Source: Planctomycetota bacterium
GTDB lineage: Bacteria > Planctomycetota > Phycisphaerae > Sedimentisphaerales > Anaerobacaceae
Reading direction: 5' to 3'
DNA: 45,119 nucleotides
Assembly (NCBI GenBank): GCA_020350405.1
Contig: CP070715.1
Span: 2,462,645 to 2,507,763, forward strand
Part shown: one piece after another, positions 22,810 to 35,688 of the stretch
Numbering within the stretch: position 1 is the stretch's first letter
Layout of the letters: each line of letters begins with the position of its first letter
Position numbers and translations under genes: made by a program
Notes under the pieces: generated by a model
What the model was told of the DNA's origin: nothing
Database searches by the model: none
The model's input: the letters and a program-made list of their open reading frames with translations, nothing else

Positions 22810-24585
22810 TCAACCTGTTGCCCCGAGTTGACCGCGAAGCTTCTTCTTCTCGCCCTTAAACTTGCTGGGGTTCGGACTATTCTCAATGCACTCAATCGCC
22901 AAACGCGTAAGTGATTCCCCTTTCTTATCTCTTGCCTCTTCGATTACTCGTTTGAGCAGCGCCTTTCCTGCCTTGTCTCCACAGCCAACCTTAAATATCA
23001 CCACGTCGCGCCACTTGAGCTCATGGATTGGAATGGCCTCTGCATCATCGACCATCTTGGCAACATAGAAACAGAAAAAGCAAGGACGACGGAACTGGTA
23101 AGTCTGGCCTTCTCTGGCATCAATCAGGCCCATCTTGTCTGCTTTCCCCAGCAGCGCGGCCACCCGTTCTTTGTCCGCTTCCAGCGGATTGTTTGCACCT
23201 TTCAGCCCTCGCGTCACATCAACGACGGTAAACTCCGGATTACGCTCGGCACCCATCGTATTAATCAACTGGGTTGCAACCGCAGCAAGCACCGATTCGA
23301 CATCGTTCACATCATTTTTCGAAAGCCCTATATTCTCCGCCCGATTCTGCACGAACGCATTCGTAAAATTATACTGCCGGAGAGAGCGCACATCCAACTC
23401 CAACAAAAAGTCCGGGTCCAAATCCAAATTCGCCGGAAGACGAAAGAACTGTAACCACAGCCGTCGTTTGTCCGGGTCGGCCAGAAGTTCAAGAAGCTTC
23501 CGGCGATTTTCAAGTGTCACACGCGGTGAGAATATCCTTTTTTCCACCGCCGCTTGGCCACTCCCGTAAAGCAACGCTGTGCTGAAGCCCTTCTTTCTAA
23601 GGGCTTCTGGTTTTCCGTGGAGAACGTCCGCATAGTCGCGAATCCGGCTCGTCACCATAACAGAAGCGTAATTCGCGTCCTCAGTAAGAGCCGCCACCGC
23701 ACCCGCAGCCTGTTTCATGCCCTGCGCTTCGTCCAGGGCATCTAACAGCAAAAGGTATCTCCGCTTCGTGAGCTTAAGATCTTTAACTTGAATTGTACTA
23801 TCCCCGAATGTCCTGGAAACATTCTTAATTTGCTCACGCAGCCCCCCCGGAGTCAGTTCATCCGCCTTCACCTTACCCAGCTCGACAAAAACTGGAACCG
23901 GAGCTTTATCGTCCGCCAGCGCACGCCGGGCGGCAACTAACTCCAGATATTGCAACATGGTCGTCTTTCCGCTTCCCGGTTCACCCAGAATCAGAACATG
24001 GGGGTTATTACTGCGCTTCAACAGGTCAACATCGCACAGGGGCGACTCCACATAATCATAGACATCCTTCGCCAAATCGCTCGGCTTGTCTCTTTTCCCA
24101 CGGACCGGGAGGACCCACCTCAATACGCCGAATACTCTGGATATCACTTTCCACCTGTGATCCACCTTGCCGAGTCCCGAGCGCCAGCGCAGCAGACCTT
24201 CGAAAACCACTATCGGAGGGGCCTCCGTTCCCGGCTCGCTGAGAACGAAAAGCGTCGACGTCGCATAATCCCGTTCGAACTTCCCGCCCCATTCTCCCTT
24301 CCTCAGTTGAACTATGCCCCGAAGGTAGGTGTTCAGCTTTTTGTCACGCTTCAACTCCTTATTTTCCCTTTGCATCCTTGTAAACACCCCTTCAAACGTG
24401 CCAAACGTCAAGCTTTCGGGCATCACTCCCATGGCGATAAATGCAGCTATTATTATCAATGGAACCGCCACGGGCACCTTCTTGCCTGCCAGCAGGATGA
24501 CTACTACACCGATCAACGCTAGGCCCGCCAGGATTAGCCCGCCGATAGGAAGGCACGTTTCCGGATCAATACTAATCAATAACAT
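22810..24585 (-). CDS. Membrane-anchored NACHT-type STAND NTPase
   Basis: About 591 residues. Two N-terminal hydrophobic helices (GLILAGLALIGVVVILLAG, and VAVPLIIIAAFIAMGVM) place it in the membrane. A basic linker and a helical region precede the NTPase core: Walker A GEPGSGKTT (~residue 201), Walker B LLLLDALDEA (~278-287) with the D-A-L-D-E form typical of NACHT domains, and the sensor-like VMVTSRIRDY. The C-terminal ~200 residues are helical without recognisable repeats. NACHT proteins are signalling switches, several of them antiphage. The start is uncertain: ATG 24585 has GGAG at good spacing, and ATG 24600 and 24621 are alternatives. It follows a small ORF (24632-24931) and copy B of the RNA element. 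Confidence 0.8.
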   Translation of the reverse strand: MLLISIDPETCLPIGGLILAGLALIGVVVILLAGKKVPVAVPLIIIAAFIAMGVMPESLTFGTFEGVFTRMQRENKELKRDKKLNTYLRGIVQLRKGEWGGKFERDYATSTLFVLSEPGTEAPPIVVFEGLLRWRSGLGKVDHRWKVISRVFGVLRWVLPVRGKRDKPSDLAKDVYDYVESPLCDVDLLKRSNNPHVLILGEPGSGKTTMLQYLELVAARRALADDKAPVPVFVELGKVKADELTPGGLREQIKNVSRTFGDSTIQVKDLKLTKRRYLLLLDALDEAQGMKQAAGAVAALTEDANYASVMVTSRIRDYADVLHGKPEALRKKGFSTALLYGSGQAAVEKRIFSPRVTLENRRKLLELLADPDKRRLWLQFFRLPANLDLDPDFLLELDVRSLRQYNFTNAFVQNRAENIGLSKNDVNDVESVLAAVATQLINTMGAERNPEFTVVDVTRGLKGANNPLEADKERVAALLGKADKMGLIDAREGQTYQFRRPCFFCFYVAKMVDDAEAIPIHELKWRDVVIFKVGCGDKAGKALLKRVIEEARDKKGESLTRLAIECIENSPNPSKFKGEKKKLRGQLGATG

Positions 24586-24631
24586 TGTACTCACTCCCAT
24601 TTTTCCAAACTGCTCACGCAAAACAAAAAAA

Positions 24632-25916: not shown

Positions 25917-27629
25917 CTATCTGAGAGTCGCCTGTTCTATTTGGCCGTTACGGATGTACACATCCACTTTACGACTGTTCGCCAGACCTGCGCAGAGTAT
26001 CTGGAACACGTTGCTTACTCCATCGCTCGAACGTGGATTCACTCGCCGCCAGCCGCTGCCCTGCAGGTAGGCCCATGCCATTTGTGAGCCGTTCTTCGCG
26101 TGCGTCCTCACCACCGTCTTGTTGTACAGCCATGCGCTCGTTACCGCCGGAATCATTTGCCGTAAGTCCGGCCGATTCCCGATATGCTGGGTCTTCGGCC
26201 GGCCGGGGGCATCTTGCTGCGGTGAACCGTACTTACGAACCAGACTGATCGCTCGTGCCGGCGTCAGTAGCGGGCCGCCCTGTGCCCGCAACGCACCCTG
26301 GATACACCCCAGCGCCCCAACCACAATTGGAGATGCGCTCGAAGTCCCGCTGAATTGGTCCGTATACCACTCGTCTTTGTTGGACCCGCCCTGAAGGTCA
26401 CCGTAGCCCGTGCTTGTCACTTCTCGACCCCAGCCTTGACAGTCAACTCGCGCACCGTAGTTTGAGAATCCGAGCCGAGATCGGTCCGGACCATGGTTCC
26501 TGCCATGAGTCCCCGGCGGCGGCGCGCCGGCGCCCACCAAAACGGCCCCTGAGCTGGGATTGTCCGTATTAAACGGATTCCGCCACCAGCTCGGAAACCC
26601 CGTTGGTCGAGTGTTGTAGATGGCGTCGTCTAAGTTTTGAGACCCGTTGCCTGCTGCCTCGACAACGATAATACCCTTGCTGACTGCATAACGGATTGCG
26701 CTGAAGTCATCAGGCCACCACTCTACCGCGATGTAACCGAACTGCCCGGCCCCTGTCGCATTCGGACCGGCACGGTGTATCTCTAACAGTATTATGTCGC
26801 CCGCACTCAGTTTATCCGCCGCCTGCCGGATTATTTGCGCAGTGTTGCCGAAGCGAGCTGCACCAACAATCGCATCGGGGCATATCCCCAGGATACCAAA
26901 TGCGTTCCGGTCGCCGCTGATTTCACCCAGAACCGCCGTCCCGTGGTTGTCGTTGCTTGAGCTGTTGCCGATAATCACGCCCATCTGATTCTCAAGCAGG
27001 TCCTCATGTGTAAAACGCCAGCCCCACTCGCAGTCAACTATCTTCACTCCTGCGCCTCTGCCGCCGGCCACGCTCCAGGCGTAATGGGCATCGATTCCCC
27101 CCGGAGCCGGGCCCAGATAGCCCTGCCGATTGGCGAAGTCCGGCGTCGTAATCGGCGGCTCCTCCGTCGCTGGCGCCATGTCGTTAAGGACTTCTACTTC
27201 CTCCGTCGCAACCACAGGTTCGCAGGATGGCCCTTTCACGTAGGCGTTTTCTACGACCTCCAGCGCACGCAGTGATTCCGCCAGCCCGTCCAGCCGCTCA
27301 TCGGGCGCCTCAACATGGTAGAATACCGACATATCCGGAACATCCTGCCCGCTCTCCGCCGCTAACGAGCGCGTCCTCTCACGCATGCGCTCTTCGCTAA
27401 GCCCGCACAAAGGCTGCATACTCGCGCCCTCCGATTCCAGAAGCTTCGACAGCGCAGAAACATCCGTACCCGCTGCAGACGCAACACCCTCTTTGGTTGC
27501 CCGCAATCCCGCTTCCGTCTTCGCAATGACGACTAACTCACGCTGCCCCGCCTGCCCTTCCGACTTGAAAGGCCGACCACCAGACGCGCCCTTGCCCCCG
27601 CTCCTTGATGATTTTCTTTCTTTTTCCAT
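25917..27629 (-). CDS. Subtilisin-family (S8) serine protease
   Basis: 570 residues. The catalytic triad is visible: Asp199 in VKIVDCEWGW, His229 in NDNHGTAVLGE and Ser430 in GTSSASP, with the oxyanion Asn328 in EAAGNGSQN. Numbers count from ATG 27629, which is preceded by AGGAGG; the frame extends to 27728. There is no signal peptide; the N-terminus is basic and Ser/Gly-rich, followed by a ~110-residue prodomain-like region (LVVIAKTEAGLRATKEGVAS). The last ~100 residues form a beta-rich extension (SGWRRVNPRSSDGVSNVF). Absence of a signal suggests a cytosolic protease or non-classical export. It lies between copy C of the RNA element and the small acidic protein, on the same strand as the NACHT gene. 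Confidence 0.88.
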   Translation of the reverse strand: MEKERKSSRSGGKGASGGRPFKSEGQAGQRELVVIAKTEAGLRATKEGVASAAGTDVSALSKLLESEGASMQPLCGLSEERMRERTRSLAAESGQDVPDMSVFYHVEAPDERLDGLAESLRALEVVENAYVKGPSCEPVVATEEVEVLNDMAPATEEPPITTPDFANRQGYLGPAPGGIDAHYAWSVAGGRGAGVKIVDCEWGWRFTHEDLLENQMGVIIGNSSSNDNHGTAVLGEISGDRNAFGILGICPDAIVGAARFGNTAQIIRQAADKLSAGDIILLEIHRAGPNATGAGQFGYIAVEWWPDDFSAIRYAVSKGIIVVEAAGNGSQNLDDAIYNTRPTGFPSWWRNPFNTDNPSSGAVLVGAGAPPPGTHGRNHGPDRSRLGFSNYGARVDCQGWGREVTSTGYGDLQGGSNKDEWYTDQFSGTSSASPIVVGALGCIQGALRAQGGPLLTPARAISLVRKYGSPQQDAPGRPKTQHIGNRPDLRQMIPAVTSAWLYNKTVVRTHAKNGSQMAWAYLQGSGWRRVNPRSSDGVSNVFQILCAGLANSRKVDVYIRNGQIEQATLR

Positions 27630-27855
27630 GGCTACACCTCCTAAAAATTTTATTCCTGTAAGAGACACTGTTTCCGTTTGACCGCTGACAAATACCTCAC
27701 GCAATTTTCGCGACCAACTTTGACGCAAAAACCAATCTTTCCCTGCTGCATCTTATTACCGGTCCGCTCTCCAAAACGCGTTTACTTGCCCCTTCATAGG
27801 CGCCCCTTTTTAACCTTCACTGCACCCCAAAAAACTCAACCCACAACGTCAGCCT

Positions 27856-28451: not shown

Positions 28452-29819
28452 TCAAACTTTCCCAATTACTCCATCCTCCCTATTTTCAACCAACCTCACC
28501 TGGACTAACTCACCTTGCCTCAATTTTTTTGCGCCCGTTTTCCGCACAAAAACCATGAAATACCTCTCACTCCGCCCCTTAAACCCACCGTTTTCCACCA
28601 GAATCTCGCATTCCTCCCCGATAAACCCCTCCCGAAATCGCCGCCCCAACTCCGCATCCAAATCCCGCAACACCTTCGACCGCCTCTTTATAACTCTATT
28701 ATCCACAACACCTTGCATCTCCGCCGCCGCAGTCCCTCGACGTGCCGAAAACCCGAAAACATGCATCTTTGCGAACCCCACTGCCCTCGCCAACCCCACC
28801 GTCGCCTCAAACTCACCCTCCGTCTCACCCGGAAACCCCACTATTACGTCCGCTGTTATCGCCGGCCTATCCAGCCGCGACTTCACTAACTCCACCGCCC
28901 GCAAGAACTTACAAACACTGTACTGCCGCCCCATCCGCTTTAGCACCGCATCTGAGCCTGACTGCAGCGAAAGGTGCAGATGCGGCATAATGTTACGATG
29001 CCTGCAGAAACTATCCACCAATCGCTCCGTTACGTCCCCCGGCTCCAGCGAGCTCAGCCGTATCCTCGCAAGCCCCGGTATCCTTGCCATCTTATCAAGC
29101 AAATCAGCCAATTTATCATTTTGCTGATTCGCCCACGTCTTTCGTCTGACGCTCTCTTGGCCGTAAGCGCCGAGAAATACGCCTGTTACGACAATTTCCT
29201 TATGGCCCGCCTCCGCCAGTGCTTCCGCCTCTTGCAGGACCGCTCCGGCCGCCTTGCTGTGAACATTGGGTCGCGCCTTCGGTATAATACAGTAGCTGCA
29301 ATATCCGTCGCAGCCATCTTGAACTTTGAGAAAAGCTCGTGTATGGCCCTTAAACGATGTTAGTTGCGGCAGTTTCGCGGGATTGCGTAAGTTATTGTTC
29401 GGCCTGACTTTAGGCCCGTTTTTTGCTCTATTAACATGTTGGTCGGTCTGGAGCTTTCGGGAATTCGACTCGCCGGCTTCGCCATTGACTATTTGCGTCA
29501 AAACAGCCGCTGTGGCCGCTCGTTCCCTAATCAGACGAATGTTTTTACCCAAATGCCCTAATTCGCCGATTTCCACACTGGGCAAGCAACCGCAAACGAC
29601 GATAAATGCATCAGGGCTTAGTTTTTGGGCTCTTCGGAGACATTGTCGGCTCTTGGCCGAAGCACTGTGAGTAACACAGCAGGTATTGATTACAACTACG
29701 TCGGGCCTCTTGGCAGTTTCGGCTTGGTTGAGTCCGAGTTGTTCAAGCAGCTGCCGAATCTGCTGACCTTCGTATTGGTTAACTTTGCAGCCAAGAGTAG
29801 TTATGGCAAAGGCTTTCAT
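28452..29819 (-). CDS. mtaB: tRNA (t6A37) methylthiotransferase MtaB
   Basis: 455 residues, typical length. N-terminal UPF0004 domain beginning AITTLGCKVNQYEGQQ, with iron-sulfur cysteines at 11, 47 and ~78. The radical-SAM cluster motif C170-x3-C174-x2-C177 is in GCDGYCSYCIIP, and a C-terminal TRAM-like RNA-binding domain ends the protein. The TLGCKVNQYE signature is that of MtaB, which adds a methylthio group to t6A37 in tRNAs decoding ANN codons; MiaB has a different N-terminal signature. There is no clear ribosome binding site before the ATG, where the upstream sequence is very AT-rich (TATTATATCATATT), so a leaderless or very short-leader message is possible. It is divergent from the PilM-like gene. 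Confidence 0.92.
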   Translation of the reverse strand: MKAFAITTLGCKVNQYEGQQIRQLLEQLGLNQAETAKRPDVVVINTCCVTHSASAKSRQCLRRAQKLSPDAFIVVCGCLPSVEIGELGHLGKNIRLIRERAATAAVLTQIVNGEAGESNSRKLQTDQHVNRAKNGPKVRPNNNLRNPAKLPQLTSFKGHTRAFLKVQDGCDGYCSYCIIPKARPNVHSKAAGAVLQEAEALAEAGHKEIVVTGVFLGAYGQESVRRKTWANQQNDKLADLLDKMARIPGLARIRLSSLEPGDVTERLVDSFCRHRNIMPHLHLSLQSGSDAVLKRMGRQYSVCKFLRAVELVKSRLDRPAITADVIVGFPGETEGEFEATVGLARAVGFAKMHVFGFSARRGTAAAEMQGVVDNRVIKRRSKVLRDLDAELGRRFREGFIGEECEILVENGGFKGRSERYFMVFVRKTGAKKLRQGELVQVRLVENREDGVIGKV

Positions 29820-29911: not shown

Positions 29912-32188
29912 ATGGCGTCGGAATCCGGCTCGGTTTGGGCAATAGATATAGGCAATAACTCCTTAAAAGCGTTACATTTAAGCAATGTAGGAGGCGCCGT
30001 TGAAGTGATCGGCTTTGACAATGTCCAGCACGGCAAAATTCTTAACGGAAGTGGTGTAAAGCCTGCAGAAAGAGACGAGCTGATTGCATTAAGTTTGCGC
30101 CAGTTTGTCAAGCAGAACGATTTGAGCAAAGCTGATGTGGTTGTTTCTGTGCCGAGCCACAGTAGCTTTGCGCGGTTTGTGAAGCTGCCGCCAGTAGAGC
30201 AGAAGCGCATTCCAGAGATTGTTAAATTTGAAGCCGCTCAGCAGATTCCTTTTGATATCAACGATGTGCAGTGGGACTGGCAGTTGATGACAGAGCCGGA
30301 CAGTCCTGAGAGCAGGGTGGGTATTTTTGCGATCAAGAATGAGGTAATCAGTTCGCTGCTAGAGCATTTTAGCAGGGAGAATGTGACGGTTGGTTATGTT
30401 CAGATGGCCCCGATGGCCCTGTATAATTACGCATTGTACGACCGCGGTGATTTGGTCAAGTCCGAACGTCAAGCTGTTGTTGTTATTGATATTGGTGCTG
30501 AAAATACCGATTTGGTTGTCTGCACGAGCTCAGCGGTTTGGCAAAGGTGCATACCGATGGGCGGCAATGCTTTTACGAAGGCTATAGCCGATACGTTTAA
30601 GCTTAATTTTGAAAAAGCTGAGAAACTTAAACGCACTGCCCCTATGAGCAAGTACGCCCGGCAGGTGTTCCAAGCGATGAGGCCGGTATTTACGGACTTA
30701 GCCTCTGAAATCCAGAGGTCGCTCGGGTTTTACAACAGTTCCAACCCCAACACTAAATTATCGAGGATTATTGCGTTGGGTGGCGGAACGAAGATGCGCG
30801 GTCTGCTCAAATATCTGCAGCAGACGCTGCAGATGCCTGTTGAAAGGCCGGACTCGTTTAAGAGGCTTGCGATTAGTTCGGGTGTCTCAACGGCGAAGTT
30901 TCATGAGAGTGTCAGCGATTTTGGCATTGTGTATGGTCTTGCTTTACAGGGCTTAGGCTTGGCGAGGATAGAGAGTAACCTGCTGCCTCGCAGTATTGCC
31001 CGTTCGATGGCTTGGGCAGGTAAAGCCAATTACTTTAAAGTTGCGGCCGGTTTGCTGTTATTAGTTTCGGTTCTGGCTTTTGCGAGGACGTTTTTTGTTG
31101 ATAGGGTCAGTTACGCAAATAACAGTCAGGTTCGACAGAAAATCAATGCTGTTATTAGTGTTGCCAAGCAAGCCAGCAGCAAACTTCAAGCGCAAGAGAA
31201 CAAGGCCTCCAGTTCTGAAGCAGCAATAAAAAAGGCATTTGAACCATTTGAATATCGTGACGTGGTTCCGTTATTGCATCAGACAATATTCTCGGTTTTG
31301 CCGAACGAAAAATACAATCCTGAACAGCGCGAGCTTTACAGGGCTTTTGCCGATGGTGATGTAGAAGCGGTTTTGGAAATACCCCGCAGAGAGCGCAAAC
31401 AGGTCTTTTTGACAAATATGTCAGTGTACTTTTCAGGTGATATTGCCAAGGCAGAGTTTGGCGGCGCGGATTTACTAAGGGCGGGCCTTAGAAAGAAAAG
31501 AGGACGGGGAGGAGTTGGTGGCGGTCCTCCTGGTTACGGTGGTCCCCCTGGTTACGGTCCTCCTGGTTACGGCCCTCCTGGTTACGGCGGTCCTCCCGGT
31601 TATGGTCCTCCTGGTATGCCTGGGATGTCTGGTAGGTATGGTCCGAGGACGCGTTCGAAAAGAGGCAAGACAGATGACTCCGCAGAGGATGAAGGGGAAA
31701 AGGCCGGGTTTGTGGTAACGATAGTCGGATATAGTCCCTATAAGAACCTGGGTGAACTGATGGACCCTGCGGGGGTGGAGGACGACCCGAGCAAGTGGGG
31801 CGTTGTTACTCGGCTGCTGCATCTTGACGATATTGTTGACGGGAACAGCCCTTTTGAGCTATACAAGAAGGCCAGGATCGAACATTTCAAGCTGGAAATA
31901 AGTGAAGTAGACCTGGAGGCCGGGGTGCCGGCCGGGATAGGCATTAGGGATACTAAGCTTGAGAAAGGTAAGAAGGCCGATAGGTGGGGTGCTGAGGAGT
32001 TTTTAATTGACCCTATGACCCAGGAGACTATCGGTAAGGTTCCTGAGCTGGACGAGTACGGAAAAGAGAAAATCGACAGGTCGGGCAACGTTGTTTATAA
32101 AGTTAATGACCATTGGTTCAGGTTGGATGCTAAATTTATCTGGAGGGATGCGCCAAAGGAAGCGAGCGAGGAGGATACAGGTAGTTAA
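29912..32188 (+). CDS. pilM: PilM-like pilus assembly ATPase with membrane and periplasmic extension
   Basis: 758 residues. Residues 1 to ~340 match PilM, the actin-like cytoplasmic ring protein of type IV pilus and related secretion machines: VWAIDIGNNSLKALHL (phosphate-1), KFEAAQQIPFDINDVQWDWQ, VVVIDIGAENTDLVV (phosphate-2) and IIALGGGTKMRGLLKYLQ (adenosine). Ordinary PilM stops near residue 350. Here a membrane segment follows (KVAAGLLLLVSVLAFARTFF, ~376-395), then a long presumed periplasmic part, as if PilM were fused to a PilN-like protein. Residues ~535-575 are a GPPGYG tract, unusual for a pilus ring protein. AGGG precedes the ATG. It is the first gene of a three-gene cluster. Confidence 0.82.
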   Translation: MASESGSVWAIDIGNNSLKALHLSNVGGAVEVIGFDNVQHGKILNGSGVKPAERDELIALSLRQFVKQNDLSKADVVVSVPSHSSFARFVKLPPVEQKRIPEIVKFEAAQQIPFDINDVQWDWQLMTEPDSPESRVGIFAIKNEVISSLLEHFSRENVTVGYVQMAPMALYNYALYDRGDLVKSERQAVVVIDIGAENTDLVVCTSSAVWQRCIPMGGNAFTKAIADTFKLNFEKAEKLKRTAPMSKYARQVFQAMRPVFTDLASEIQRSLGFYNSSNPNTKLSRIIALGGGTKMRGLLKYLQQTLQMPVERPDSFKRLAISSGVSTAKFHESVSDFGIVYGLALQGLGLARIESNLLPRSIARSMAWAGKANYFKVAAGLLLLVSVLAFARTFFVDRVSYANNSQVRQKINAVISVAKQASSKLQAQENKASSSEAAIKKAFEPFEYRDVVPLLHQTIFSVLPNEKYNPEQRELYRAFADGDVEAVLEIPRRERKQVFLTNMSVYFSGDIAKAEFGGADLLRAGLRKKRGRGGVGGGPPGYGGPPGYGPPGYGPPGYGGPPGYGPPGMPGMSGRYGPRTRSKRGKTDDSAEDEGEKAGFVVTIVGYSPYKNLGELMDPAGVEDDPSKWGVVTRLLHLDDIVDGNSPFELYKKARIEHFKLEISEVDLEAGVPAGIGIRDTKLEKGKKADRWGAEEFLIDPMTQETIGKVPELDEYGKEKIDRSGNVVYKVNDHWFRLDAKFIWRDAPKEASEEDTGS

Positions 32189-32351
32189 AGCTGCGACATT
32201 GCAGGTTCGTATTATTTGCAGGGCACTATCTTGCGGGTTCTGCGAAATGGGGACCCGGAGAGCAGCGTTGCTTTAAGACACAGTTGCGCTACAGAAGTTC
32301 CGGAGAGCCGGGACAGGAGAGCCAAAGACAGAGACAGGCGGTTGAGCTAAA

Positions 32352-33578
32352 ATGAATATCTCGGGATTTAAAGAGGCCATACAGAAGCTAAGTTTCTTTA
32401 AGAATTATTCCTCGCTGTTGGTGCCGGCTATTATATTCTTGGTTGGTGTGCTTCTTTTTATACCTACCCAGTTAATGAGCAGCAGGCTCAGGGAACGGAT
32501 AGCAAGGGAAAGTGTTTCTACAGGCAGGCAAGTTAAGTCCCTAAGCAAAAATATCGTTGCCCGTGACCAATGGCAAATTGAGCAGGAGTATCAGCAAGCT
32601 TACCAGAGAGATGCTAATCAGGCAGCCCTTTTGGCTAAGCAAAGCAGCCAAAGGGAGTTGCTGAGTTACAAAATATTTCCTGAACCGAAAGATACGTCTA
32701 CGTTGATTTTCAAGGAATTTGGCCAGCGGTATCGTGGGGCTATTGATGAGCTAATCACCCGTGTAAACGCGCGTGATTGTCCTACGGAAAGCGAGTTACA
32801 GAGGAATTTGCAGAGCTCATCGGGTTTCAGTCTGAGAGGGGGAAGGGGCTTTGCGGGGAGGTTGAGCGAGGTCGATACTACCATAACGGACGTTATTTGC
32901 AAAGAGAAGGCGCAGTCTGCTTCTGTTTATGCGAACCCGGCAGACTTGGCCGGATACGAGTTCTGGGACGAATATCAGTATTTCGGAAGGGTGGAGGCAA
33001 TTGAAGATTGTTGGTATTGGCAGTTGGCTTGCTGGATCATCGAAGATGTTGCTGATACTATAGGTGCTCTAAATTCCGGCTCTAATAGTGTTTTCACCTC
33101 GCCTGTCAAGCGGCTTTTGGATATAAGTTTCGCTGGAGATGTTATGGGGGGTGCCAAGAAAGGTTCAGCCAGCAGTCCACCAGCATATGTTCTTTCGCTG
33201 GGTGAGGGGTTTGCGGAGCCTTGTACTGGAAGGTTTACTGATGATGATATTGATGTTGTGCATTTCAATGTAGTTGTTGTGGTTGGCGCGAAGGCTGTTT
33301 TGCCGTTTATGCAGCAGTTATGCAGTGCCAAGGAACATAGGTTTAGCGGGTCTTTTGGAGAGGAACAAGAGCGTGTTTACAAGCATAATCAAATAACGGT
33401 TTTGGAAAGCACTATTAGTCCGGTTGGTCGGGAGGATACAAATCATCTTTTGTACCGTTATGGTGAAGATGCTGTCGTGGAGTTGGATTTGGTTTGCGAG
33501 TATATTTTCAATAAGAGCGGCTACGATGAGATTAAGCCGGAATCGATTAAAAAGGCCTCAAAGGCTGCAGGCGATTAA
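32352..33578 (+). CDS. Single-pass membrane protein of the pilus-platform cluster (PilN/PilO-like position)
   Basis: 408 residues. A ~20-residue cytoplasmic start, one transmembrane helix (SLLVPAIIFLVGVLLFIPTQL, ~21-41), a charged helical segment that could be a coiled coil (SRLRERIARESVSTGRQVK ... EQEYQQAYQRDANQAALLA), and a large C-terminal domain. This is the topology of PilN and PilO, though I see no diagnostic motif. The ribosome binding site is weak. It lies 163 bp after the PilM-like gene and 106 bp before the next cluster member, same strand. Its function is inferred from position and topology. Confidence 0.6.
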   Translation: MNISGFKEAIQKLSFFKNYSSLLVPAIIFLVGVLLFIPTQLMSSRLRERIARESVSTGRQVKSLSKNIVARDQWQIEQEYQQAYQRDANQAALLAKQSSQRELLSYKIFPEPKDTSTLIFKEFGQRYRGAIDELITRVNARDCPTESELQRNLQSSSGFSLRGGRGFAGRLSEVDTTITDVICKEKAQSASVYANPADLAGYEFWDEYQYFGRVEAIEDCWYWQLACWIIEDVADTIGALNSGSNSVFTSPVKRLLDISFAGDVMGGAKKGSASSPPAYVLSLGEGFAEPCTGRFTDDDIDVVHFNVVVVVGAKAVLPFMQQLCSAKEHRFSGSFGEEQERVYKHNQITVLESTISPVGREDTNHLLYRYGEDAVVELDLVCEYIFNKSGYDEIKPESIKKASKAAGD

Positions 33579-33684
33579 ACGAAAGAATTTGAGAAGATGG
33601 AACTGGATTGGTTGGGAGCAGGTTGGCAGCACAGATGGCAAGTTGATTTGCCCCGGTGACGGGAATTAAAACAGGAAGGTCAAA

Positions 33685-35688
33685 ATGGCAAAGAAAAGTG
33701 GTAGCTTTTTCGAGGAGCATGTTGAAAAGATAGTGTTGGCGGCTGTCGGGCTTGTGTGCATCTGGCTTTTTGTCGCCTATGTTCTTATCGGTCGCACTTA
33801 TGTAGAGTTCGACGGCAAGAAATTCAGTTCCGGTGGCATTGATAATTACATAGTCCAACAGACCAAGGCTCTGGAGAGCAGGCTGAATAGCAAGCCCCGG
33901 CTGAAGCAACCATATGAGTCAAGAGTTAGTGATTTTGTCGCTGTGATCGACTCGGCCATAAGTAATATTGACGTTGGCCTCTGTCCCGTACAGCCTCCCG
34001 TTTTGGAGGACATAGATATTAATAAAGGCAAATATCGTTTGCCGCTAATTGGTCAGGTTAACGATATTGAGGTCGAGCATATCAGGGCAGTGGCTTATGT
34101 GCCTACCGAAGAGATTGATGAGGAAAATACTTATGATGTGGTGGAGCATGAACCAAATGACATCGATTTTGTAACTGTGGCGGCGAAGTTTGATGTTGCG
34201 GGACTATATAAGAGGTTTCGTGAATGTTTTGCTGGTGAGGTACTTCCGGAGGAGTGGCGCGACCCGTGTCTTGCCGTCCCGGTTTTTGCGGCCGTACAGT
34301 TGCAAAGACAGGAATTGCTTTCCGAAGGCAGTTGGAGCGCTTGGGAAGACGTCCCTCGAGCCCAGATTGACCATCGCAAAAGGATGTTCGAGATTATAGA
34401 AGATGTTGAAGAACTGCCGGCGGGTGGGATAAAGGTGCGTTTACTTCAGTTTGATGATCAACAGATTAGGGCGGACCTGCTGCAGCCGGCGTCCTATCAG
34501 ATTGCATCTGCCAAAGAAGAATGGTTGCCTCCATCGCTGCACAAGGAATATTTGGAGCATCAAAGAGAGATAGAAGCGCAGGAGAAACGTGAGGCCAAGG
34601 CTGCAGAAAAGGAGGATCGCGAAGAAGGACGCCCAGACCGGCGCAGCAGGACACCGAGAACACGGTCACGTCAAGGAGGAATGGGAATGAGTGGTCCTTT
34701 TGGAGGAGGAGGTGGTGGCGGACCCCCTGGTTACGGCGGCGGCGGCGGCGGTCCTTCTGGTGGTGGCCTATCCACAAGAAGAAGGGCGCCGACAAGAAGA
34801 AGGCGTGTCGATCGCGACCGTGAGAGTGATAAAGAACGTCGGGAAAGAAGTAAAGAGGCTACAAAGACAACAACGGATGTTTATAAAAAATTTGACGAGC
34901 TTTTAATTACCAGAGAAAAAGATGTTGCGAAGATGGATGAGCCGTTGATGTTCTGGGCGCACGACGATACTGTTGAACCGGAGAAGAGCTATCGGTATAG
35001 GATTCGGTTAGGTGTTTATAATCCGATAGCCGGTACGAATCAGTTCCACGAGCAATACAAATCGCTGGGGAACAGAGCTATTTTATGGAGCGAGTTTTCT
35101 GACACAACGGAGGCTGCAGATATTCCGGGGAGGTTGTACTTCTTCCCGCGAGAGATACAAGAGGCAACCGAGACGGTGACAGTGCAGGTGTGCAGATATG
35201 TGCTGGGGTATTGGTACACCAAGGACTTTACTGTGAAACAGGGTGAGATGATTGGCAACGCCAGTGAGTACAAAATGACAGAGGAGGAGGAGAAAGAAAA
35301 GGTTACCGTGCCAGAGATAGTCGAGTATGCTACTGGAGCAGTCTTGGTGGACGTTATGCCTGTAAATGACTGGTCGGGCGGAAAGAATCTGCGCGCCAGG
35401 CATTATTTTGATATGCTTTACAGTTTCGATGGGGCGAATATAGAGCGCGTACCTATTAAATCGAGGTATTGGTCCGAAGAATTGCTGAGCAAGTTTAACG
35501 AAATCAAAAGGTCTGAGAAGGAGCCGAAAGAGCCTTTGCGAGAGTGGGGCACCAGGGCGGGTCTGGATAGGCGTGTCACCAGACCGGGAGAGGTTGGGCC
35601 TCCTGGGTATGGTCCTCCCGGCTACGGGCCTCCAGGTTACGGGCCTCCGGGTTTCGGGCCACCCGGTTATGGGCCTCCTCGTCGCTGA
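33685..35688 (+). CDS. Membrane-anchored GPPGYG-rich protein of the pilus-platform cluster
   Basis: 667 residues. One N-terminal membrane helix (IVLAAVGLVCIWLFVAYVLIG), then an exported domain, a strongly charged stretch (~residues 290-325, many Lys/Glu/Arg), a Gly-rich segment with one PPGYG (~340-362), a second folded domain (~400-620) and a C-terminal tail of five PPGYG or PPGFG units. The same tract type occurs in the PilM-like protein two genes upstream, tying them to one apparatus. GGAAGG precedes the ATG. Position suggests a PilP-like or outer connector role, but no family is recognised. It converges with the beta-mannosidase gene, leaving only 12 bases between the stops. Confidence 0.65.
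   Translation: MAKKSGSFFEEHVEKIVLAAVGLVCIWLFVAYVLIGRTYVEFDGKKFSSGGIDNYIVQQTKALESRLNSKPRLKQPYESRVSDFVAVIDSAISNIDVGLCPVQPPVLEDIDINKGKYRLPLIGQVNDIEVEHIRAVAYVPTEEIDEENTYDVVEHEPNDIDFVTVAAKFDVAGLYKRFRECFAGEVLPEEWRDPCLAVPVFAAVQLQRQELLSEGSWSAWEDVPRAQIDHRKRMFEIIEDVEELPAGGIKVRLLQFDDQQIRADLLQPASYQIASAKEEWLPPSLHKEYLEHQREIEAQEKREAKAAEKEDREEGRPDRRSRTPRTRSRQGGMGMSGPFGGGGGGGPPGYGGGGGGPSGGGLSTRRRAPTRRRRVDRDRESDKERRERSKEATKTTTDVYKKFDELLITREKDVAKMDEPLMFWAHDDTVEPEKSYRYRIRLGVYNPIAGTNQFHEQYKSLGNRAILWSEFSDTTEAADIPGRLYFFPREIQEATETVTVQVCRYVLGYWYTKDFTVKQGEMIGNASEYKMTEEEEKEKVTVPEIVEYATGAVLVDVMPVNDWSGGKNLRARHYFDMLYSFDGANIERVPIKSRYWSEELLSKFNEIKRSEKEPKEPLREWGTRAGLDRRVTRPGEVGPPGYGPPGYGPPGYGPPGFGPPGYGPPRR

Follow-up and report, generated by a model that had tools for sequence, protein, structure and literature searches.

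A PilM-like fusion gene and its two neighbours in a planctomycete: the probable inner-membrane part of an Akkermansia-type type IV filament machine

Layout of the cluster and domains of P1

The window, by which we mean the whole stretch of 45,119 nucleotides analysed here, carries three genes on the forward strand, P1, P2 and P3, and their open reading frames of 758, 408 and 667 amino acids (29912..32188, 32352..33578 and 33685..35688, respectively) are those proposed in the initial annotation. P1 consists of a PilM actin-fold ATPase followed by a membrane-anchored periplasmic part that looks PilN-like, P2 is a bitopic protein resembling Amuc_1100 and PilO, and P3 is also bitopic, with two conserved blocks in its alignments that are joined by a charged Gly-rich linker and followed by a variable tail. 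According to the sequences and, for P1 and P2, to the AlphaFold2 models, a single membrane helix is present in each of the three proteins; it is internal in P1, whereas P2 and P3 have it near the N-terminus.

The PilM domain of P1 occupies residues 1-347 (29912..30952) and has the phosphate/adenosine motifs of the actin fold at residues 10, 190 and 288. In the profile searches it matched PilM_2 (PF11104) with 134.9 bits at residues 11-346 and TIGR01175 (PilM) with 152.9 bits over residues 8-347, the latter above the curated cut-off of 133 bits, and a sequence search also paired residues 1-347 with solved PilM chains. About 410 residues lie past the PilM_2 match, so P1 is indeed longer than a PilM, as had been noted before.

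Directly after this domain comes the motif NLLP (residues 356-359, 30977..30988), at the junction of PilM and membrane helix as at the start of PilN, and then the membrane helix itself with a periplasmic coiled coil (residues about 360-448, 30989..31255). The AlphaFold2 model of the C-terminal part, which starts at residue 354 and has a pLDDT of 82.7, places helices here at model residues 7-50 and 52-95. NLLP is invariant in an alignment of 17 diverse relatives, and it is present in 69 of 82 P1 orthologs, most of the remainder having close variants. Comparable start motifs such as INFVP occur in the solo PilN proteins of the same order, and INLLP-like junctions in many of the PilM-PilN fusions that Pfam recognises there. 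Furthermore, PilM accommodates a highly conserved motif of the PilN N-terminus in a pocket (PMC5805733), and PulL (GspL) is a PilM-PilN fusion (PMC10191384). Considering the junction motif and the topology together with these two precedents, the most likely reading of P1 is a fusion of PilM and PilN comparable to GspL, and this is how the initial annotation had already read it.

No match to PilN was obtained in sequence or in fold. PF05137 (PilN) did not match P1 in the Pfam search, and PilN and PilO were absent from the structure matches listed for its C-terminal part (Foldseek and VIA), which were mainly phage neck/tail-terminator-type folds with Z up to 7, several of them scoring against P2 as well. 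In profile-profile comparison neither this part nor P2 nor P3 matched the PilN or PilO sets of the relatives, with the PilN-PilN and PilO-PilO controls at 97-98%. Another type of PilM-PilN fusion, distinct from P1 and with about 500 amino acids and a Pfam-recognised PilN part, is common in the order (L206-L232).

Regarding the families to which P1 could belong, Amuc_1101_fam (NF045709) gave a higher score than TIGR01175, with 246.9 bits over residues 49-443, against a curated cut-off of 650 bits that P1 does not reach. The genome has four other PilM proteins, and these showed the reverse preference (Amuc_1101_fam/pilM scores of 103/153, 66/105, 37/53 and 38/63). As GspL is itself a PilM-PilN fusion, one could also take P1-P2-P3 for the GspL/GspM/GspC-like part of a type II secretion system and not of a pilus; the fusion architecture and the bitopic partners are alike, and P1 does give a faint GspL/T2SSL match. 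However, P1 scored 17.5 bits with GspL (TIGR01709), whose cut-off is 65, and the genome has a separate type II secretion cluster at 1412-1425 kb with secretin, ATPase, platform and pseudopilins and with GspL-like and GspM-like genes of its own. We regard this reading as very unlikely, and the secretin described below argues against it as well.

P2, P3 and their relatives

The AlphaFold2 model of P2, made from an input alignment of 65 sequences, has a pLDDT of 87.2 and a pTM of 0.78 and consists of a long N-terminal helix, a helical part and an alpha/beta core. When it was compared with the PDB by Foldseek, the best nine matches were all Amuc_1100 and PilO came next. The same ranking was found by VIA-align: Amuc_1100 (6lad_D) gave a Z of 12.8 with an rmsd of 3.6 over 171 of 190 residues at 9% identity, two further Amuc_1100 entries gave 11.9, and PilO gave 7.4 (2rjz) and 6.2 (5uvr), the next unrelated rows being at about 5. 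Thus, the predicted structure of P2 matches the solved Amuc_1100, and the lead of Amuc_1100 and then PilO among the matches of this predicted fold agrees with the earlier idea of a PilO-like bitopic protein. In some relatives and in other classes, Gly-rich insertions stand between the first two strands of the core.

At the sequence level, the PDB profile search with P2 returned nothing. Amuc_1100_fam (NF038287) did not match the P2 of the window and matched only 1 of 65 P2 orthologs, weakly (E 0.0041) and without reaching its cut-off. This single match stayed alone after more orthologs were added, and therefore the kinship of P2 rests on structure and gene order. For P3, there was no sequence match in Pfam, NCBIfam or the PDB.

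The three genes are well conserved. P3 was found in 96 of the 99 relatives of the order and in all of the 50 near-complete genomes, and the order P1-P2-P3 was constant in every locus long enough to be read. P2 was found beyond the order, in other orders of the class and in a single family of another class; wherever the gene order was readable there, it was unchanged. The long PilM of the Amuc_1101 kind is spread over the phylum, in at least 103 of 195 genomes by a hand count of the listed matches, which included the open frames of at least 600 amino acids with a match past position 420 of the Amuc_1101 model. In another class the model was matched to position 558 of 608; the cut-off of Amuc_1101_fam was passed by none of the 195 genomes.

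The GPPGYG tracts

Tracts of GPPGYG had been pointed out at three sites, and all three are where they were said to be. The tract of P1 (residues about 536-572, about 31517..31627) is a run of PPGYG units, and the C-terminal tail of P3 (residues 637-667, 35593..35685) is made of PPGYG/PPGFG units up to the C-terminus. The description of the segments as repeated holds for these two, but not for the middle site in the linker of P3 (residues about 341-362, about 34705..34770), where a single GPPGYG lies inside poly-Gly. The DNA pattern for two units (GPPGYGPPGYG) was found 6 times in the 2.96-Mb genome, whereas it was absent from the other strand, and the reversed pattern, used as a control, was absent altogether; therefore, the tracts are not there by chance. 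Five of the 6 places are in P1 or P3 and one is in an unrelated protein.

It had been suggested that the tracts give the proteins a shared self-associating or matrix-binding property, and such a functional module might then define the machine. The presence of the tracts at three sites, in two proteins from the same operon, would fit this, and so would a protein sequence kept with varied synonymous codons and the retention of the tracts in a second species of the genus. Nevertheless, PPGYG was confined to the genus of the window, that is, to 2 of 72 P1 orthologs and 2 of 55 P3 orthologs (the window and L066, the second species), and it was absent from the other 70 and 53. Outside the genus these positions are occupied by PGM repeats, GGG runs or charged sequence, or are almost empty, the insertion of P1 varying from 18 to 95 residues and the tail of P3 from 0 to 42, and the unrelated protein of the genome has an identical tract. 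The sites are thus hypervariable linkers and the suggestion was not upheld; a shared module of this kind seems to us highly improbable. The tracts are not absent from all relatives, which would have counted against the earlier reading, but the only relatives that have them belong to the same genus.

In the AlphaFold2 model the periplasmic domain of P1 has the insertion with the tract between the beta strands 146-155 and 246-255 (model numbering), and the pLDDT is below 50 at most of the model residues 180-228 (P1 533-581), remaining low to about 595. All this fits disordered lineage-specific spacers better than a conserved binding module. GPPGYG was also tried as a mark of the pilus machine, and it was dropped because of the ortholog survey and of the same tract in an unrelated protein.

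The protein at the sixth site has 210 amino acids and a signal-peptide-like start, with QPPGYGGPPGYGPPGYGPP right behind this start (G000:C1:2648141; locus L062 1414-2046). Its gene sits between ParB-like and dtd-like genes, named by eye, and otherwise it looks unrelated to P1-P3.

The secretin and the proposed machine

Neither in the window nor in the Phycisphaerae loci that were read does a secretin gene adjoin the trio. In other classes, a long secretin was close by in 13 of the 19 loci with a P1-type gene, and at least 9 of the 19 had the full order P1-P2-P3-secretin. The genes in the position of P2 in these operons align to P2 over 275 columns with a probability of 97-98%. The third genes align to P3 mainly in the region of the membrane helix, and that of L303 also matches the C-terminal block of P3 (E 8e-13). 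A fifth gene, for a protein of about 750-1000 amino acids, follows the secretin in several of these operons (L300, L301, L303, L308 and L309).

The genome of the window has seven secretins. A lone gene of 1024 amino acids at G000:C1 1668475-1671547, 0.8 Mb from the trio, was the best match of all 13 operon secretins of other classes, and in a maximum-likelihood tree it falls into one clade with them (support 100/99), apart from the six others, on a long branch whose position within the clade is not settled. Its N-terminal part was found in 88 of 99 genomes of the order. The scores of this secretin were 98.9 for MshL, 83.6 for Amuc_1098, 66.6 for PilQ and 62.0 for GspD, a ranking that the other secretins of the genome do not show. 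Judging from these sequence comparisons, the cognate secretin of the trio is most likely this gene, and its being closer to MshL and Amuc_1098 than to GspD is a further point against a type II secretion system.

The trio could alternatively serve another pilus cluster that lacks PilM, together with a secretin other than the one of 1024 amino acids. Two clusters come into question, PilB-PilT-PilB-PilC at 884-902 kb and PilB-PilC-pilins at 957-962 kb, since both have ATPase, platform and pilins and no PilMNOQ within the stretch read, and there are two further secretins, at 270 kb and 1.92 Mb, that are likewise separate from PilM genes. However, the kinship of the secretins points to the 1024-aa gene, and as far as the motor is concerned this alternative is compatible with an Akkermansia-type machine. 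As a whole we find it unlikely. The trio of this genome is not linked to an ATPase, platform or pilin gene dedicated to it, and the genome has several clusters for pili or secretion that carry parts of their own. At about 224.4-229.8 kb of G000:C1 (L037 5365-10845) there are genes for PilM, PilN and PilO and then for a ParA/Soj-like ATPase and PilQ, the motor genes being absent in the stretch read.

In Akkermansia, the locus Amuc_1098-1102 has the neighbour order Amuc_1101, 1100, 1099, 1098 (PMC5332112). Amuc_1099-1102 have been termed MUL2, described in Verrucomicrobia orders only in the literature consulted, and Amuc_1101 was named PilM (PMC13174399), whereas Amuc_1098 was termed PilQ (PMC10688800). 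Our trio is alike in its PilM-like protein with a C-terminal extension, its bitopic protein with a predicted Amuc_1100 fold, its third bitopic protein and a long secretin, and other planctomycete classes have the complete neighbour order. However, the planctomycete sequences are far under the curated family cut-offs, and for this reason the proteins are kept out of the NCBI Amuc families; the secretin is split off in the genome of the window, and the planctomycete proteins have Gly/Pro-rich insertions. Compared with the PilMNOP of type IVa pili, the PilM domain of P1 above the TIGR01175 cut-off, the PilN-like NLLP junction, the possibly PilO-like predicted fold of P2 and the likely coupling to a secretin are alike, but a single chain contains both PilM and the PilN-like part, the sizes of P2 and P3 are much greater, and P1-P3 match none of the PilN, PilO and PilP profiles. 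We conclude that the trio is most likely homologous to the Akkermansia machine and works like it.

From the domain make-up, the junction motif, the predicted fold of P2, the gene order and the kinship of the secretin, we think it quite probable that P1-P2-P3 belong to a type IV filament machine of the Akkermansia type (Amuc_1098-1102, MUL2), in which they make up the alignment subcomplex of the inner membrane. In P1, the PilM domain in the cytoplasm would dock at the motor side and would be coupled, via the junction with NLLP, to the membrane-anchored PilN-like part that the same protein has in the periplasm. P2 would pair with this PilN-like part, and P3, as the third periplasmic partner, would extend towards the secretin. 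The Gly/Pro-rich tracts, whose sequence drifts between genera, may provide reach or spacing as disordered loops, linkers and tails. We infer here the formation of the complex, the direction of transport and the role of the tracts, and also the function of the filament, which is probably attachment to polysaccharide.

The machine had been supposed before to be a planctomycete-specific pseudopilus machine handling two pseudopilins of the window. A machine of the pseudopilus type that is wide in Planctomycetota is supported, but its specificity is not, because the neighbour order and the predicted fold of P2 match the Amuc_1098-1102 (MUL2) locus of Akkermansia. The link to the two pseudopilins is not borne out either, since they are two among 52 N-methyl pilin-like genes of the genome, many of which, with 260-310 amino acids, are in the same size class.

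Akkermansia uses its type IV pilus machine for attachment to mucus, and Planctomycetota are known for polysaccharide breakdown. Amuc_1100 has been studied as an outer-surface immune ligand, is used as a probiotic protein and has been described on the cell surface. Our comparison argues for placing it in a PilO-like family that is encoded beside a PilM-PilN fusion and a secretin. It also extends the MUL2/Amuc_1100 kind of machine to Planctomycetota, names the missing secretin and gives a testable part list for an unstudied and widespread pilus system. More tentatively, and with the chances somewhat below even, the machine of PilM-N, Amuc_1100, third protein and secretin might be ancestral in Planctomycetota and present in nearly the whole phylum, be shared with Verrucomicrobiota and serve polysaccharide capture in environmental planctomycetes, and Amuc_1100 might by origin be a PilO-type inner-membrane alignment protein.

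Regarding the surroundings of the operon, its divergent neighbour on the reverse strand (28452..29819) is an MtaB/MiaB-like methylthiotransferase gene, named by eye from the sequence. It adjoins the operon in most of the listed loci of relatives (L042-L052) and in several loci of other classes (L300, L303, L308 and L309), and this constant neighbour has no evident role in pili; it is probably not part of the machine. In several Phycisphaerae (L236, L238, L246, L247, L251 and others) recurring open reading frames like antisense frames of 23S rRNA are found near the operon, which suggests an rRNA operon next door. Finally, genes for a NACHT NTPase and a subtilase-family peptidase lie on the reverse strand of the window at 22810-24621 and 25917-27728, with an open reading frame of 135 amino acids between them, and these two might be a conflict or signalling pair.
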